Assembly: GCA_946414825.1 (NCBI GenBank)
Contig: CAMKQB010000021.1
Span: 1-32,991 of the forward strand
Direction of reading: 5' to 3'
From: an uncultured Lachnospiraceae bacterium
GTDB taxonomy: Bacteria > Bacillota > Clostridia > Lachnospirales > Lachnospiraceae
DNA length: 32,991 nucleotides
In this document: one piece after another, positions 13,884 through 19,627 of the stretch
Layout: every line of letters starts with the position of its first letter
Numbering within the stretch: position 1 is the stretch's first letter
Position numbers and translations under genes: made by a program
Notes under the pieces: generated by a model
What the model was told of the DNA's origin: nothing
Seen by the model: the letters and a program-made list of their open reading frames with translations, nothing else
Databases searched by the model: none

Positions 13884-14990
13884 TTAACTATATAAATCCT
13901 CCCAAACAGCATATAATGTGATATTTCCCACTATTTGTGCGGAAAAATCGAATTCTACCAACTCTCCAGTCTCTCCATCCACGTAGAACCATCCTATAAA
14001 GGCTCTTTCGCTGTCTTCAGGTTCCTCAGGCTCTTCAATACATTCACCCTCAGCAACCTCATAATCCTCGTAAATATCCTCGTCCTCATCATACATAAAT
14101 CTCACTGTGTATACTGAAATCTGATCCGATACGCCTGTTTCTGGATTATCTGCATATTCCGCATCTTCTACTGACTCTTCTGTAGAATCTTCAACCGTTC
14201 CATCTACGGTTTCGCCTGCACTTTCCTCTGTGTTGCTCCCTTCTTCTGTAGCTTCTACTGATTTCTCTGTAGCACTTTCGGCCGTCTCATTTCCTTCTGT
14301 CTCACTGCTTGCAACCTCTACAGACTCAGCAGTTTCCGCCTCACTTACAGTATCCTCATCTCCAGCTTCATCTGATGTTTCCGAAGAATCACTTGTTTCA
14401 CTTTCAACTGTTGTAGCATCTGACTTTTTTGTACTCGATTTCTTATTTTTTTTACTAGACTTAGTTGTACTATCACTTTCTGTATCAGACTCTGTTGACT
14501 CAGTTTCGCTTGTAGCAGCATCTTCTGTTTCAGGCCCGCTCACTTCAGACTCAGAAGTAGACGCATCACTCGACTTCTTACTCGACTTCTTTTTCTTAGA
14601 CTTATTAGACTTAGCTGAAGATTTTGCTGAAGAACTACTCTTTTCATCCGAAGCCTCGGTAGCTTCATTTATAGAGCTTTTGGATTTCCCTTTAGAACTT
14701 CCTTTCTTCATCTTCCCAGATTTATTAACAGAGGCCGTCTCAGTGGCATTTCCCACCGACGCATCTTCTGTTTCTTTATCCGTAGTTTCTTTCGTTTCAT
14801 CATCTGCCGTCTCAAGACTACCCTTTGAAGCCTTAACTCTGTCGTAGTCTTTCTCAATATTTTCTTTTTCCTCTACTCTAGTCTCTGACGAATTCCTTTC
14901 AATTCCTCTATTAACCGCAAATGCCGTACCTCCCGAAGCCAGCATTGCCACACTTAAAATAATTGCTATTTTCTTATTAAATCGTCTCAT
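13884..14990 (-). CDS. Secreted low-complexity protein with one InlB/Flg_new-type repeat
   Basis: A 368-residue exported protein of unknown role. It has a signal peptide with basic start MRRFNKK, a hydrophobic core, and likely cleavage after AFA at residue 25. Residues about 35-290 are low-complexity: alternating acidic Thr/Ser/Glu stretches and Lys/Ser patches such as SNKSKKKKSSKKSS. The C-terminal 70 residues match the Listeria-Bacteroides (InlB B-repeat/Flg_new) pattern: VYTVRFMYD, a Glu-rich loop, AFIGWFYVDGETGELVEF, ITLYAVWE. There is no LPXTG sorting motif or lipobox, so it may be released or held by charge. GGAGG lies 7 bases before the ATG. It follows scfB after 93 bases and ends at its own terminator. 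A link to the SCIFF system is only positional. Confidence 0.8.
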   Translation of the reverse strand: MRRFNKKIAIILSVAMLASGGTAFAVNRGIERNSSETRVEEKENIEKDYDRVKASKGSLETADDETKETTDKETEDASVGNATETASVNKSGKMKKGSSKGKSKSSINEATEASDEKSSSSAKSSAKSNKSKKKKSSKKSSDASTSESEVSGPETEDAATSETESTESDTESDSTTKSSKKNKKSSTKKSDATTVESETSDSSETSDEAGDEDTVSEAETAESVEVASSETEGNETAESATEKSVEATEEGSNTEESAGETVDGTVEDSTEESVEDAEYADNPETGVSDQISVYTVRFMYDEDEDIYEDYEVAEGECIEEPEEPEDSERAFIGWFYVDGETGELVEFDFSAQIVGNITLYAVWEDLYS

Positions 14991-15083: not shown

Positions 15084-16526
15084 TTAGTTACAATCTTCTG
15101 TACAGTCTTCGCAGTCGGAGCCTGCGGTTGCACCGCTGATAGGTTCTAATCCGAGAGCATCATGAGCAACCTGAATCATTATTGCACATTCCATTCTCTT
15201 ACGGAATAGTTCGCAACCATACTCATATATACCCTTAACATCTCCCGTCGCATGATATGCGTTAGCCGCACAACCGCCAGAGCAGTAATGCATAGCCCAG
15301 CAATCACGGCAATCTGGTCGAGCATAAGCGTTACAGACACGGAACTCCTCCTGTCTATCCTTGTTTGTTACTCCCTTCCATATATCCCCCAGCTTGTAAG
15401 ACTCATCGCCAACAAACTGATGGCATGGATAAAGATCTCCCCAAGGAGTAACTGCCATATATTCTGTACCAGAACCACATCCGGATATCCTCTTATAGAT
15501 ACAAGGTCCTGACTTCAGATCTACCATGTAATGATAAAATGTGAAACCATCTCCCTCTATATCTCGTCTCAGCATCTCCTTAGCAAGTATCTCATACTGC
15601 TCCTTAAGAACCGGAAGATCCTCCTCAGTAAGAGCAAGCGGGTCCCCTGGTCTACTAACAACCGGCTCCATTGAGAGCTCCTTAAAACCTAGCTCCGCCA
15701 TCTTGAATATATCTTCAGTAAAATCAGTATTAAGATGAGTATATGTACCACGCATGTAATAATTCTTGCCACCACGTGCTTCAACCAGCTTCTGGAACTT
15801 AGGAATAATCTTCTCCCAGCTTCCATTACCGGCATAATCCTTACGAGTCCTGTCATGAACTTCCTTACGTCCATCCAAACTCAGCACCACATTACTCATT
15901 TCTTTATTGCAGTATTCAATCACTTCATCATCAATCAGAACACCATTCGTAGTAAGGGTAAATCTGAAATTCTTATCATACTTCTTTTCTATGGAACGAG
16001 CATACTCAACTATTTGTTTGCATACATCCCAGTTCATCAGAGGCTCGCCACCGAAGAAGTCCACCTCCAGATTATGACGAGAACCACTATTAGCAATCAG
16101 GAAATCAATAGCCTGCTTACCAACCTCAAAGGACATAAGAGCCCTCTCGCCGTTATACTTACCCTGTGCAGCGAAGCAGTATTCACAGTTCAGATTACAA
16201 GTATGAGACACATGAAGACACAGAGCCTTGATTACATCTCCACTTCTTTTCTTGAACTCCCCTGCCAGCGGTTCAAATGTATCCGGCGTATATAGCTTGT
16301 GAGCATCCACCAGAGAACGCACATCCTCTATACAAAGACGCACCTCCTCCTCTGTGACATCCTCCCGGTCACCATACTTAGCCATAATAACATCAATTAT
16401 CTCCTGCTCACTCTTCTCAGGAAACAGCTCGATGATATCATACGCCACGTCATCCACGCTATGCACGCTTCCCGAGCACGTATCTAACACGATATTATAT
16501 CCATTTAATTTATACTGATGTACCAT
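15084..16526 (-). CDS. scfB: SCIFF thioether-forming radical SAM/SPASM maturase
   Basis: Radical S-adenosylmethionine enzyme that installs a thioether link in the SCIFF peptide. Residues 1-about 90 form a leader-binding (RRE-like) region that opens MVHQYKLNGYNIVLD, as in the family. The radical SAM cluster is C110-x3-C114-x2-C117, followed by FFGGEP (157-162). The C-terminal SPASM region holds many cysteines for auxiliary clusters (GPCIYKRISGCGSG; CRDCWAMHYCSGGCA). The 480-residue length is normal. The ATG at 16526 is preceded by AGGAAAA, a weak RBS. Unlike the usual tight pair, it is separated from scfA by 376 bases holding a terminator, a 202-bp palindromic element and a weak hairpin. Confidence 0.95.
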   Translation of the reverse strand: MVHQYKLNGYNIVLDTCSGSVHSVDDVAYDIIELFPEKSEQEIIDVIMAKYGDREDVTEEEVRLCIEDVRSLVDAHKLYTPDTFEPLAGEFKKRSGDVIKALCLHVSHTCNLNCEYCFAAQGKYNGERALMSFEVGKQAIDFLIANSGSRHNLEVDFFGGEPLMNWDVCKQIVEYARSIEKKYDKNFRFTLTTNGVLIDDEVIEYCNKEMSNVVLSLDGRKEVHDRTRKDYAGNGSWEKIIPKFQKLVEARGGKNYYMRGTYTHLNTDFTEDIFKMAELGFKELSMEPVVSRPGDPLALTEEDLPVLKEQYEILAKEMLRRDIEGDGFTFYHYMVDLKSGPCIYKRISGCGSGTEYMAVTPWGDLYPCHQFVGDESYKLGDIWKGVTNKDRQEEFRVCNAYARPDCRDCWAMHYCSGGCAANAYHATGDVKGIYEYGCELFRKRMECAIMIQVAHDALGLEPISGATAGSDCEDCTEDCN

Positions 16527-16597
16527 ATATTTTTCCTATTCATCACTATATTTTTCCTGCAAATTGGTTCCAGACTATTCTCTGAAACCACGCTAAA

Positions 16598-16615
16598 AAT
16601 GCCCCAACTGGCACT
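16598..16615 (-). terminator. Weak hairpin with short T run before scfB
   Basis: A 6-bp stem (16615-16610 with 16603-16598, one G-T pair) is followed on the minus strand by a short T run ending near 16595. It could be a weak terminator or attenuator between the palindromic element and scfB. Low confidence. Confidence 0.3.
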
Positions 16616-16632
16616 TACTTTTTTTATAAACA

Positions 16633-16834
16633 GTACGATGACTCATTTCATATACTCTGTAATCGATAGCTCTATTTTCGTCAAATTAGAAGAGAAAACT
16701 TCCTAAAATATCTGCGAGCGATGCTGTCCGAGCGCAGCGAGTTAAAGCGAGCAGATACATTTTAGTGAAGGTTTCTCGAATAATTTAGAAAATAGCTAGC
16801 GTGATTACATAGTATATGAAATGAGACATCGTAC
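16633..16834. mobile_element. 202-bp long-palindrome MITE-like element
   Basis: Two arms of about 83 bases (16633-16715 and 16751-16834) are inverted repeats around a 35-base loop (16716-16750) rich in AGCGA/GAGCG. The outer 32 bases match at 30 positions, starting GTACGATG and ending CATCGTAC; the inner ends also match (TCTGC with GCAGA, CTAAAAT with ATTTTAG), with scattered mismatches and small indels between. It contains no open reading frame of note. Size, terminal inverted repeats and intergenic placement fit a MITE or large REP-derived element. No target-site duplication is obvious. Together with two hairpins it fills the 376 bases between scfA and scfB. Confidence 0.75.
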
Positions 16835-16844
16835 GTCCGTTCAT

Positions 16845-16878
16845 GAAAGAAATACGCCACCAAATTATGGTGGCGTAT
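16845..16878 (-). terminator. Intrinsic terminator after scfA
   Basis: A perfect 10-bp stem, ATACGCCACC (16878-16869) with GGTGGCGTAT (16861-16852), has a 7-base loop and is followed on the minus strand by TTTCTTTC. It lies 25 bases after the scfA stop and would limit read-through into scfB. Confidence 0.75.
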
Positions 16879-16902
16879 CTGAATAATTAAATCTGTAAAA
16901 AT

Positions 16903-17055
16903 TTACTTCTGTGAAGCTGCATTCTCACACTTCTGATTTGCTACACCACAGCTGGTTTTGCATGCGCTCTGGCATGATGTCTGGCACTCGCCACATCCAC
17001 CTGTCTTAGCACTTTCACAGAGATCTCTAGTCTCAAGAGTCTTAATTCTTTCCAT
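16903..17055 (-). CDS. scfA: SCIFF ranthipeptide precursor with Gly37 and an extra Cys13
   Basis: A 50-residue ribosomally made peptide, substrate of ScfB. The core CGECQTSCQSACKTSC (21-36) is the family hallmark. Seven cysteines are present (13, 21, 24, 28, 32, 36, 43); SCIFF means six cysteines in forty-five residues, so Cys13 is extra. The usual SCTVANQ reads SCGVANQ here, so residue 37 is Gly (codon 16945-16947, GGT). The ATG at 17055 is chosen because AGGAG lies 7 bases before it and family members begin with a short M-x-x-IKT; an upstream in-frame ATG at 17103 has no such support. It has its own promoter and terminator, so it is probably expressed strongly as a separate short mRNA. Confidence 0.95.
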   Translation of the reverse strand: MERIKTLETRDLCESAKTGGCGECQTSCQSACKTSCGVANQKCENAASQK

Positions 17056-17126
17056 GATAATTCTCCTATCTATTTTAGTTTTAAGCCATCCCTCCAGGGA
17101 CATGCCTAACTATTTACATTTATGAC

Positions 17127-17156
17127 ATAATAATAGTTTTCCTAAGAGTTTGTCAA
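17127..17156 (-). promoter_or_regulatory. Predicted sigma-A promoter of scfA
   Basis: On the minus strand a consensus -35 TTGACA (17156-17151) and a -10 TATTAT (17132-17127) are separated by 18 bases. The start would be near 17120, giving a leader of about 65 bases. It begins 27 bases past the glgP stop. Confidence 0.7.
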
Positions 17157-17182
17157 GGTTTTATGCATCGACGCAGGTATTC

Positions 17183-19627
17183 TTACGCCTCAAGATTAAC
17201 CTCAACCTTCTTAAGCTTCCAAATATCCTTTACATACTGCTCAATAGTTCTATCTGATGAGAACTTACCTGAGCAAGCTGTATTCATCATAGCCATACGA
17301 GCCCATGCGTCCTTATCTCTGTAAGCCGCATCAACTCTAGCCTGAGCCTCAGCATAAGAATCGAAGTCCTTAAGGATGAAGTAAATATCTTCCTTAGTAA
17401 GAGCATCATACAAATCTCTGAAGAGCTCAGTATCATCATTATATGTACCATTGATGAGCTGTGTAAGAACTCTACGAACAATCTGATTGCTGTTGTAGAT
17501 ATCCCATGGATTGTAGCCACCCTCACGCTCGTACTTCATAACTTCATCAGCTGAAAGACCGAAGATAAATGCATTCTCAGCACCAACCTCTTCAACTATC
17601 TCAACGTTAGCACCGTCCATAGTACCGATTGTTGGAGCACCATTAATCATGAACTTCATGTTACCGGTACCAGATGCCTCACGAGATGCTGTAGATATCT
17701 GCTCAGATACATCCGCAGCTGCGAAAATGATCTCGCCGTTAGATACTCTGTAGTCCTCAATGAATACAACCTTGATCTTATCCTTGATAGACGCATCATT
17801 ATTTATAACATCAGCAACTGAAGTGATAAGCTTGATTGTAAGCTTAGCTCTCTTGTAACCAGCAGCAGCCTTAGCACCAAAGATAAATGTTCTTGGATAC
17901 ATATCGAAATTAGGATTCTCCTTAAGCTCGCTGTAAAGATGCATAACATGGAGAATGTTGAGCAGCTGTCTCTTGTACTCATGAAGTCTCTTAACCTGAA
18001 CATCGAAGATAGAATTAGGATCTACATCAATTCCATTATGCTCCTTGATATACTTGGCAAGACGAAGCTTGTTCTGATACTTAATATTCATGAACTCCTG
18101 CTGATACTTCTTGTCATCAACAAAAGTCTTAAGCTTGCTCATCTGTGAGAAGTCTGTTATCCACTCCTCACCAATCTTCTCATTAAGCCACTGTGCCAGA
18201 AGAGGATTTCCATGTGCAAGGAATCTTCTCTGTGTAACACCATTTGTCTTATTATTGAACTGCTTAGGATTCATTTCATAGAAATCCTTCAGTTCTCTCT
18301 TCTTAAGAATCTCAGTATGAAGTCTTGCAACACCATTTACTGAATAAGAACCAGCGATTGCAAGGTGAGCCATCTTAACCTGTCCGTCATAGAGGATAGC
18401 CATGCTTCGAACCTTATCCTGATCTCCAGGATAAAGCTCCTGAATCTTGATAACGAATCTGCGGTTAATCTCCTCAACGATCTGATATATACGTGGAAGC
18501 AGTCTGGAGAAAAGCTCGATTGGCCATTTCTCAAGAGCCTCTGACATGATTGTATGGTTTGTATATGCACAAGTCTTAGTTGTGATCTCCCATGCCTCAT
18601 CCCACTCAAGGCCTTCCTCATCCATGAGGATACGCATAAGCTCTGCAACTGTCAGAGTTGGATGTGTATCATTCATCTGGAAGGTAACCTTCTTAGGAAG
18701 ATCCTGAATCTTCTTGTTGTTCTCCTTGAACTTCTTGATAGCGGTCTGAAGAGAAGCTGATACGAAGAAATATTGCTGCTTCAGACGAAGCTCTTTACCT
18801 GAATAATGATTATCATTTGGATAAAGCACCTCGCTGATAGTCTTAGCAAGATTCTGTTCCTCAACAGCCTTCTCATACTCACCTCTATCGAATGAGTTAA
18901 GGTTGAACTCCTGTGTTGCCTCAGCATCCCACATACGAAGTGTATTAACTACATTGTTGCCATAACCAACGATAGGCATATCATATGGTACGGCACGAAC
19001 CGATGTATAACCTTCCTGAATAAAATGATTACGTCCATTTCTATTTTCTACACGAACATATCCACCGAACTTAACCTCAGTAGCATATTCATTTCTCTTT
19101 ATTTCGAATGGGAATCCATTTCTCAACCAATCATCTGGCTCTTCAAGCTGATATCCATCAACAATCGCCTGCTTGAACATACCATAGTGATAACGGATAC
19201 CGCATCCATAAGCAGGATATCCCAATGTTGAAAGCGAATCGAGGAAACATGCTGCAAGTCTTCCCAGACCACCATTTCCAAGCGCAGGATCTCTCTCCTG
19301 ATCTTCAATAAAGTTGATATCAAATCCCATCTCATCAAGAGCTTCTTTGATATCTTCATAATATCCAAGATTCAGCAGGTTATTTCCAAGTGCACGTCCT
19401 ACAAGGAACTCCATCGAAAGATAGTAAACCTTCTTGACATTCTTCTCCTTATAAACCTTATGAGTAGCTATCCATCTGTCGATGATATCATCCTTAACAG
19501 CATAACTAACTGCCTGATATATCTCCTGTGGAGTTGCCTCATCGAGAGTCTTACGATATAGCATCTTCACATTGGAAGCTATCTCCTTCTTGAAACTCTC
19601 TTTGTCAAACTTTGCTATTTTTTTCAT
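17183..19627 (-). CDS. glgP: Glycogen/maltodextrin phosphorylase
   Basis: Releases glucose-1-phosphate from the non-reducing ends of glycogen or maltodextrin by phosphorolysis; PLP-dependent GT35 family. Family marks: ALGNGGLGRLAACFLDS near residue 130, and the PLP-lysine segment EASGTGNMKFMINGAPTIGT near residue 655. The 814-residue length is complete. GGAGG lies 8 bases before the ATG. It follows ileS after 47 bases, with a hairpin but no T run between, so it may be partly co-transcribed with the upstream run. The GH13 enzyme encoded at 11607-13697 could act on the same glucans. Confidence 0.97.
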   Translation of the reverse strand: MKKIAKFDKESFKKEIASNVKMLYRKTLDEATPQEIYQAVSYAVKDDIIDRWIATHKVYKEKNVKKVYYLSMEFLVGRALGNNLLNLGYYEDIKEALDEMGFDINFIEDQERDPALGNGGLGRLAACFLDSLSTLGYPAYGCGIRYHYGMFKQAIVDGYQLEEPDDWLRNGFPFEIKRNEYATEVKFGGYVRVENRNGRNHFIQEGYTSVRAVPYDMPIVGYGNNVVNTLRMWDAEATQEFNLNSFDRGEYEKAVEEQNLAKTISEVLYPNDNHYSGKELRLKQQYFFVSASLQTAIKKFKENNKKIQDLPKKVTFQMNDTHPTLTVAELMRILMDEEGLEWDEAWEITTKTCAYTNHTIMSEALEKWPIELFSRLLPRIYQIVEEINRRFVIKIQELYPGDQDKVRSMAILYDGQVKMAHLAIAGSYSVNGVARLHTEILKKRELKDFYEMNPKQFNNKTNGVTQRRFLAHGNPLLAQWLNEKIGEEWITDFSQMSKLKTFVDDKKYQQEFMNIKYQNKLRLAKYIKEHNGIDVDPNSIFDVQVKRLHEYKRQLLNILHVMHLYSELKENPNFDMYPRTFIFGAKAAAGYKRAKLTIKLITSVADVINNDASIKDKIKVVFIEDYRVSNGEIIFAAADVSEQISTASREASGTGNMKFMINGAPTIGTMDGANVEIVEEVGAENAFIFGLSADEVMKYEREGGYNPWDIYNSNQIVRRVLTQLINGTYNDDTELFRDLYDALTKEDIYFILKDFDSYAEAQARVDAAYRDKDAWARMAMMNTACSGKFSSDRTIEQYVKDIWKLKKVEVNLEA

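Follow-up and report, generated by a model that had tools for sequence, protein, structure and literature searches.

The SCIFF precursor encoded in the window, by which is meant the whole 32,991-nucleotide stretch of DNA from an uncultured Lachnospiraceae bacterium that was analysed (contig C21 of a draft genome of 2.05 Mb, 91.6% complete), carries glycine at residue 37 and is, as judged by comparison of sequences, a clade-wide variant within the known SCIFF family. Taken together, the evidence points to a working precursor/maturase pair of a Gly37 branch, in which the thioether ring would be closed on Thr34 and Gly37 would be a core residue that is not the acceptor, a joint reading to which we give a probability of roughly 60%. 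The features concerned are the following.

17017..17019, minus strand: codon 13, TGT (Cys), the additional cysteine in the leader half (sequence and tallies)
16960..16962, minus strand: codon 32, TGC (Cys), which donates the sulphur in the mappings that the available parts of reviews cite; Cys in 432 of 433 peptides
16954..16956, minus strand: codon 34, ACC (Thr), to which Hudson 2019, in the account given by the available parts of reviews, assigns the thioether of Cys32
16945..16947, minus strand: codon 37, GGT (Gly) in the sequence; Thr in 279 of 433 peptides
16903..17055, minus strand: scfA, SCIFF precursor of 50 residues, Gly37 type (SCGVANQ) with Cys13 (TIGR03973 and PF13165 scores)
15084..16526, minus strand: scfB, radical SAM/SPASM SCIFF maturase of 480 residues, Gly37-clade type (TIGR03974, phmmer, trees)

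Read from the minus strand, 16903..17055 yields the 50-residue precursor MERIKTLETRDLCESAKTGGCGECQTSCQSACKTSCGVANQKCENAASQK, and read from the plus strand it is interrupted by stops. The gene lies within a longer mechanically called reading frame (16903-17103), and an AGGAG at 17063-17067, recognized by eye, stands closely upstream of its ATG at 17055. The peptide scores 79.4 bits against TIGR03973 (cut-off 50) and 80.8 bits against PF13165 (cut-off 27), and has the six cysteines of the SCIFF block at standard spacing (Cys21, 24, 28, 32, 36 and 43) plus Cys13. A TIGR03974 gene (15084-16526) is adjacent on the downstream side, which assigns the peptide to SCIFF by its neighbouring ScfB also, and Gly37 together with a Gly37-clade ScfB places it outside the CteA-type Thr37 branch. 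Both Gly37 and Cys13, to which a sequence-only reading of this DNA had drawn attention, are real (codons GGT and TGT). The same reading took the maturase to be intact, and the ScfB of the window is indeed full length with its cluster cysteines retained. It scores 756.5 bits against TIGR03974 (cut-off 425) and, in phmmer, 528 bits against CteB (5wgg) over residues 1-452, with its radical SAM (CX3CX2C) and SPASM cysteines aligned with those of CteB. The Radical_SAM (60.3 bits) and SPASM (26.7 bits) domains are both above cut-off, and the putative N-terminal PqqD-like RRE reaches 23.3 bits against a cut-off of 23.4, the whole N-terminus aligning with that of CteB.

Among 433 SCIFF peptides from 431 loci, 279 have Thr at residue 37, 153 have Gly and one has Ser, a total that comprises 403 distinct peptides, includes some genomes present in two collections (e.g. 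L062 and L201) as well as three later-fetched relatives of the locus L404, and derives from partly biased sampling. The earlier statement that the family normally has Thr at this position is correct for 279 of the 433 peptides, and Thr37 is not a defining feature of SCIFF overall. A one-off variant, or an assembly or sequencing slip, was rejected as an explanation, as Gly37 is found in 26 of the 50 loci read in the genus and in 153 of the 433 peptides. Rough frequencies can be read from the class and phylum samples only, and every sample is limited to TIGR03973 matches. The even class sample, spanning 57 families of which five hold both kinds, gave matches in 132 of 157 genomes, and the 130 read (those with a locus not already in the set) comprise 102 Thr37 and 28 Gly37. 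Matches were present in 97 of the 119 genomes of the phylum sample, and its 88 loci, one of which repeats a class genome, comprise 86 Thr37, one Gly37 and one Ser37, with seven matches left unread. Of the 61 genomes of the genus, 53 gave a match, three of them left unread, and the 50 loci read divide into 26 Gly37 and 24 Thr37. The family sample (matches in 229 of 250 genomes) contributed 80 loci picked by score (30 best, 38 low-scoring and 12 others), with 67 Thr37 and 13 Gly37. When the window peptide was used as query against a named genome collection, all of the best 80 of 592 had Gly37, in a set biased by selection for likeness to a Gly37 query; these include Faecalibacterium prausnitzii, Oscillibacter and many Oscillospiraceae. 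Of genomes with several SCIFF matches (e.g. G074 and G189), one locus or none was read. Gly37 is present in 17 of the 113 GTDB families read in the genome searches. The Gly37 type went unmentioned in the open literature searched by core motif strings, the original SCIFF papers possibly showing it, and in the available parts of PMC5300114, PMC13289728 and PMC11352710 SCIFFs or ranthipeptides are handled as one class.

The core around this position is otherwise strongly conserved. Lys33, Thr34, Ser35 and Asn40 are each present in 433 of 433 peptides, Cys32 in 432 (Ser in one) and Cys36 in 428 (Ile in three, Leu in two). In the five exceptions to Cys36 (L408, L418, L426, L429 and L441) Cys32, Thr34 and Thr37 are retained, and Cys36 appears to be dispensable in some lineages. 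Gly37 is always paired with Ala39 in the peptides read, and Thr37 occurs with Ala39 or Gly39, and in three cases with Ser39; a strict rule of Thr37-Gly39 and Gly37-Ala39, hinted at by the first 140 loci, was rejected for Thr37, which also occurs with Ala39. Two loci, L180 and L314, contain two head-to-tail SCIFF cores in one reading frame, both of them with Gly37.

Whether Gly37 forms a clade together with its ScfB was a check proposed in the sequence-only reading, and the trees answer it clearly. ScfB matches numbered 388, of which the 374 with at least 300 aligned residues were used; a match was lacking in the fetched flank of 31 of 340 SCIFF loci and of nine of 88 later ones. The Thr/Gly label changes once in a FastTree tree of 298 ScfBs and again once in one of 374 rows (373 labelled), where each of the 136 ScfBs of the Gly37 clade has a Gly37 peptide as its partner; the partner was of the Gly37-Ala39 type for all Gly37-clade ScfBs read. 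In an IQ-TREE analysis of 97 representatives, the 38 partners of Gly37 peptides form one clade (support 100/100) inside a 54-row set (100/100) whose remaining 16 members are Thr37 ScfBs of GTDB family f1, probably Lachnospiraceae. An 84-row tree gave the Gly37 clade with 100/98 and the set including the Lachnospiraceae Thr37 rows with 100/99; two f1 Thr37 rows (L324 and L327) fell outside the Lachnospiraceae set in both trees. The bootstraps of these trees are unsettled (correlation 0.942 for 97 rows and 0.904 for 84 rows), and all ScfB trees are rooted at midpoint only. Because of this nesting, the Gly37 pair would descend from Lachnospiraceae-like Thr37 pairs, provided that the true root falls within the numerous remaining Thr37 lineages. 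The ScfB of the window belongs, in the 97-row tree, to a 20-row set (100/99) composed of seven Oscillospiraceae, seven rows without family rank, four of Lachnospiraceae or f1 and two of other families.

Both kinds also coexist within the genus of the window. In an rpoB tree of 29 members (14 Thr37, 14 Gly37 and one, G028, unlabelled) the Thr37 species are monophyletic (99/99) and a single Thr/Gly change suffices; the search covered 30 of the 61 genus genomes, with G042 giving no match and a second G026 locus dropped, and G031 and G026 are placed on very long branches. A homologue of the window gene at 17183-19627, which we take to be a phosphorylase, lies beside the Gly37 locus in 23 of 26 cases and beside the Thr37 locus in 0 of 24, in flanking stretches of some 1,500 bases. 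The four genus Thr37 loci checked upstream (L005, L009, L010 and L218) adjoin a protein with Ig-like domains, in L009 with a HAD hydrolase frame in between. The two kinds thus occupy different places in the genus, consistent with one peptide-maturase cassette having supplanted another, and it seems that precursor and maturase travel together. From the patchy distribution and the changed gene neighbours, we infer that the Gly37 branch has spread and replaced older copies as such a cassette.

A comparison of alignment columns between 136 Gly37 and 237 Thr37 ScfBs identified five that divide the two kinds. Column 109, which immediately precedes the opening cysteine of CX3CX2C, has Thr in 129 Gly37 ScfBs and Asp in 217 Thr37 ScfBs; column 113 is Asn in 129 as against Arg or Ala in 207; column 329 is Thr in 130 as against Asn in 146; column 331 is Tyr in all 134 Gly37 ScfBs with a letter there and Phe in 213 of 236 Thr37 ScfBs, the other 23 of which also have Tyr; and column 333 is Tyr in 133 of 133 as against Phe in 230 of 236. 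The ScfB of the window has T109, N113, T329, Y331 and Y333, where the aligned CteB has D, R, N, F and F. Columns 109 and 113 adjoin the radical SAM cysteines and columns 329, 331 and 333 lie 9 to 13 residues before the next cysteine of a cluster region, the first one of the SPASM region, so that all would be near the active site, going by position in the sequence only. Shared ancestry alone could explain the dividing columns, since there was only one Thr/Gly switch. A strict tie of T109 to Gly37 was rejected, as L461 has D109 and both L459 and L460 have Ser109, all with Gly37.

The consequences of Gly37 depend on where the thioether of SCIFF peptides is formed. The sequence-only reading took Cys32-Thr37 as the CteA link and considered the acceptor lost in the window. 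A Cys32-Thr37 thioether was reported from in vitro work on Tte1186a and CteA (Bruender 2016 and Grove 2017, as cited in the available parts of PMC8326336 and PMC8172795), but according to the same parts of these two reviews Hudson 2019 found Cys32 of co-expressed CteA joined to Thr34 through C-gamma, which contradicts that assignment; PMC11002830, in its available part, states only an S-C-gamma Cys-Thr link. With Thr34 in place here and in 433 of 433 peptides, the loss of the acceptor is not supported, and the finding that was named beforehand as speaking against it, a conserved column elsewhere that holds the acceptor Thr, is plausibly what Thr34 represents. Gly37 cannot be linked through a side chain, but all 432 peptides with Cys32 can form a Cys32-Thr34 ring, and such a ring is the most likely prediction for the window precursor. 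ScfB would dock the leader, roughly residues 1-20, by its putative RRE domain and remove a side-chain hydrogen from Thr34, whose carbon would then be bonded to the Cys32 sulphur, the arrangement that the reviews cited give for co-expressed CteA. A thioether to such a non-alpha carbon defines the ranthipeptide class, and one to an alpha carbon the sactipeptides. Gly37 would then be a clade-fixed part of the core that changes how a product with this same small ring is shaped or recognized, and Cys13 would be a leader feature of a sub-branch.

The in vitro mappings to Thr37, reported for two Thr37 systems, are the counterpoint to this reading. Conservation does not single out Thr34 either, residues 27-31, 33, 35 and 40 being likewise invariant in a tally of 342 peptides. 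Position 37, like most of the core strictly constrained, may well matter for the ring, because it is fixed within each clade, unlike a residue without a role. Residue 37 as the family-wide acceptor, with the Gly37 branch forming a sactionine-type bond from Cys32 to C-alpha of Gly37 by means of a re-tuned ScfB, is accordingly an alternative to weigh. It accords with the restriction of residue 37 to Thr and Gly, one Ser apart, with either invariant in its own clade, with the in vitro link at residue 37 in those partly available sources, and with the change, along the Gly37 branch, of ScfB columns beside both metal-cluster regions; but Thr34 is just as fixed and was mapped as the acceptor in co-expression, and most of the adjoining residues are fixed as well, which leaves this alternative rather unlikely. 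We know of no ScfB for which formation of a C-alpha bond has been demonstrated.

A lineage beside the Gly37 clade bears on these alternatives. L404 (genome G528 of family f118, also fetched as L462) encodes a SCIFF with Ser32, Ser37 and Val39, retaining Thr34 and the remaining core cysteines, together with a full-length ScfB; in the 84-row tree this ScfB branches as the sister of the Gly37 clade (99/99). Its codon 37, AGC, is one base from Thr ACC and one base from Gly GGC, both codons being in use here. The ScfB of L404 has D109/A113/R329/F331/Y333, and those of its three family relatives, whose peptides have Cys32 and Gly37, have S or D109, A or S113, T329, Y331 and Y333. L404 may possibly represent a step between Thr37 and Gly37, although as a single draft genome it is a lead. 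A more far-reaching proposal, that the Gly37 ScfB clade switched its chemistry to Cys32-C-alpha of Gly37 in a manner traceable via the Ser37 of L404 and stepwise changes at ScfB 333, 331, 329, 113 and 109, is regarded as improbable; if it were true, one enzyme family would make C-gamma links to Thr in one branch and C-alpha links to Gly in another. Having no donor Cys32, L404 itself would form either another link or none. This nearest outgroup of the Gly37 clade, with Ser37 and yet with Thr34 and a full-length ScfB, lends something to the view that ring closure in the Gly37 branch involves a different donor or acceptor (e.g. Thr26 or Ser35 as acceptor, Cys28 or Cys36 as donor) in a different ring pattern, as does Thr at residue 26, found in all 147 Gly37 loci but in only 156 of 193 Thr37 loci (first copy each). 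However, L404 stands for a single genome, and the peptides of its three relatives in the family carry both Cys32 and Gly37; a change of partners is unlikely. To our knowledge no SCIFF link has been published at Thr26, Ser35, Cys28 or Cys36.

Decay, with the ring lost and the system dying, could be argued from the absence of the acceptor named by the in vitro work in the partly available reviews. The sequence-only reading considered it less likely than a changed product, and the full-length ScfB, the otherwise unchanged core, the 136 of 136 clade ScfBs paired with a Gly37 peptide in the 374-row tree and the occurrence of Gly37 in 17 of 113 GTDB families agree; with such clade-wide conservation decay is largely refuted and has only a minute probability. 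The preferred reading, a functional pair with its ring at Thr34, makes the Gly37 clade, which has kept Thr34 and has its own maturase, a natural experiment on the dispute between Thr34 and Thr37. The Thr/Gly split, inherited with ScfB and running through a single genus, also casts doubt on the view, found in the available part of PMC5300114, that all clear ScfA homologues are functionally equivalent, and the branch concerned includes Faecalibacterium prausnitzii (L136).

Cys13 lies in the leader, ahead of the GG at 19-20, and occurs in 121 of 342 peptides: in 117 of 147 Gly37 loci and four of 193 Thr37 loci (first copy each). On a tree of 57 Gly37-clade ScfBs, made without bootstrap, it needs only two changes. 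It tracks ScfB Gly89 (102/3/3/27) and Cys17 (95/7/10/23) in a raw table of 135 Gly37 ScfBs; as a case for Cys13 as a ring partner, this covariation gives only one to two independent pairs, supports no conclusion and was set aside. The earlier suggestion that Cys13 might take part in the ring gains nothing from its leader position and its two changes, nothing having been found that ties it to the ring; Cys13 probably lies outside the ring and marks a sub-branch of the Gly37 clade as a leader feature.

Of the systems described, CteA/CteB (thermocellin, Clostridium thermocellum) and Tte1186a/Tte1186 (Caldanaerobacter) have, in the available parts of the sources, the same Cys32, Thr34 and radical SAM/SPASM maturase, and the window differs from CteA/CteB by Gly37 in place of Thr37 and by the leader Cys13. 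The Thr37 SCIFFs of other Lachnospiraceae (SCTVGNQ) have ScfBs that are the nearest Thr37 relatives of the Gly37 clade, but combine Thr37 with Gly39 where the window type combines Gly37 with Ala39, and have other gene neighbours in the same genus. The Gly37 SCIFFs of Oscillospiraceae and other families (Faecalibacterium prausnitzii L136, Oscillibacter L076) are of the same type, SCG(V/I)ANQ; L136 has its ScfB in the Gly37 clade and a peptide without Cys13, and otherwise shows ordinary divergence. More distant is freyrasin (PapA/PapB), a ranthipeptide with a related SPASM maturase, against whose model NF047865 the ScfB of the window scores 277.9 bits, below the cut-off of 340; freyrasin has six Cys-Asp C-beta links according to the available part of PMC8172795, whereas the SCIFF core of the window has no Asp.

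The gap between scfA and scfB holds an imperfect inverted repeat of about 200 bases (16633-16834), 75% identical to its own reverse complement and folding at -91 kcal/mol (z -9.1). An Rfam search of 16480-17180, covering the repeat, gave no match at gathering score, and elsewhere in the genome there is one partial copy (148 bases, 83%) and a 43-base match; a MITE-like element and a structured scfB leader are candidate identities for the repeat. The strand that carries scfB has, farther downstream at 13884-14990, a frame of 368 residues rich in Ser, Thr and Glu, with a start that resembles a signal peptide by eye.
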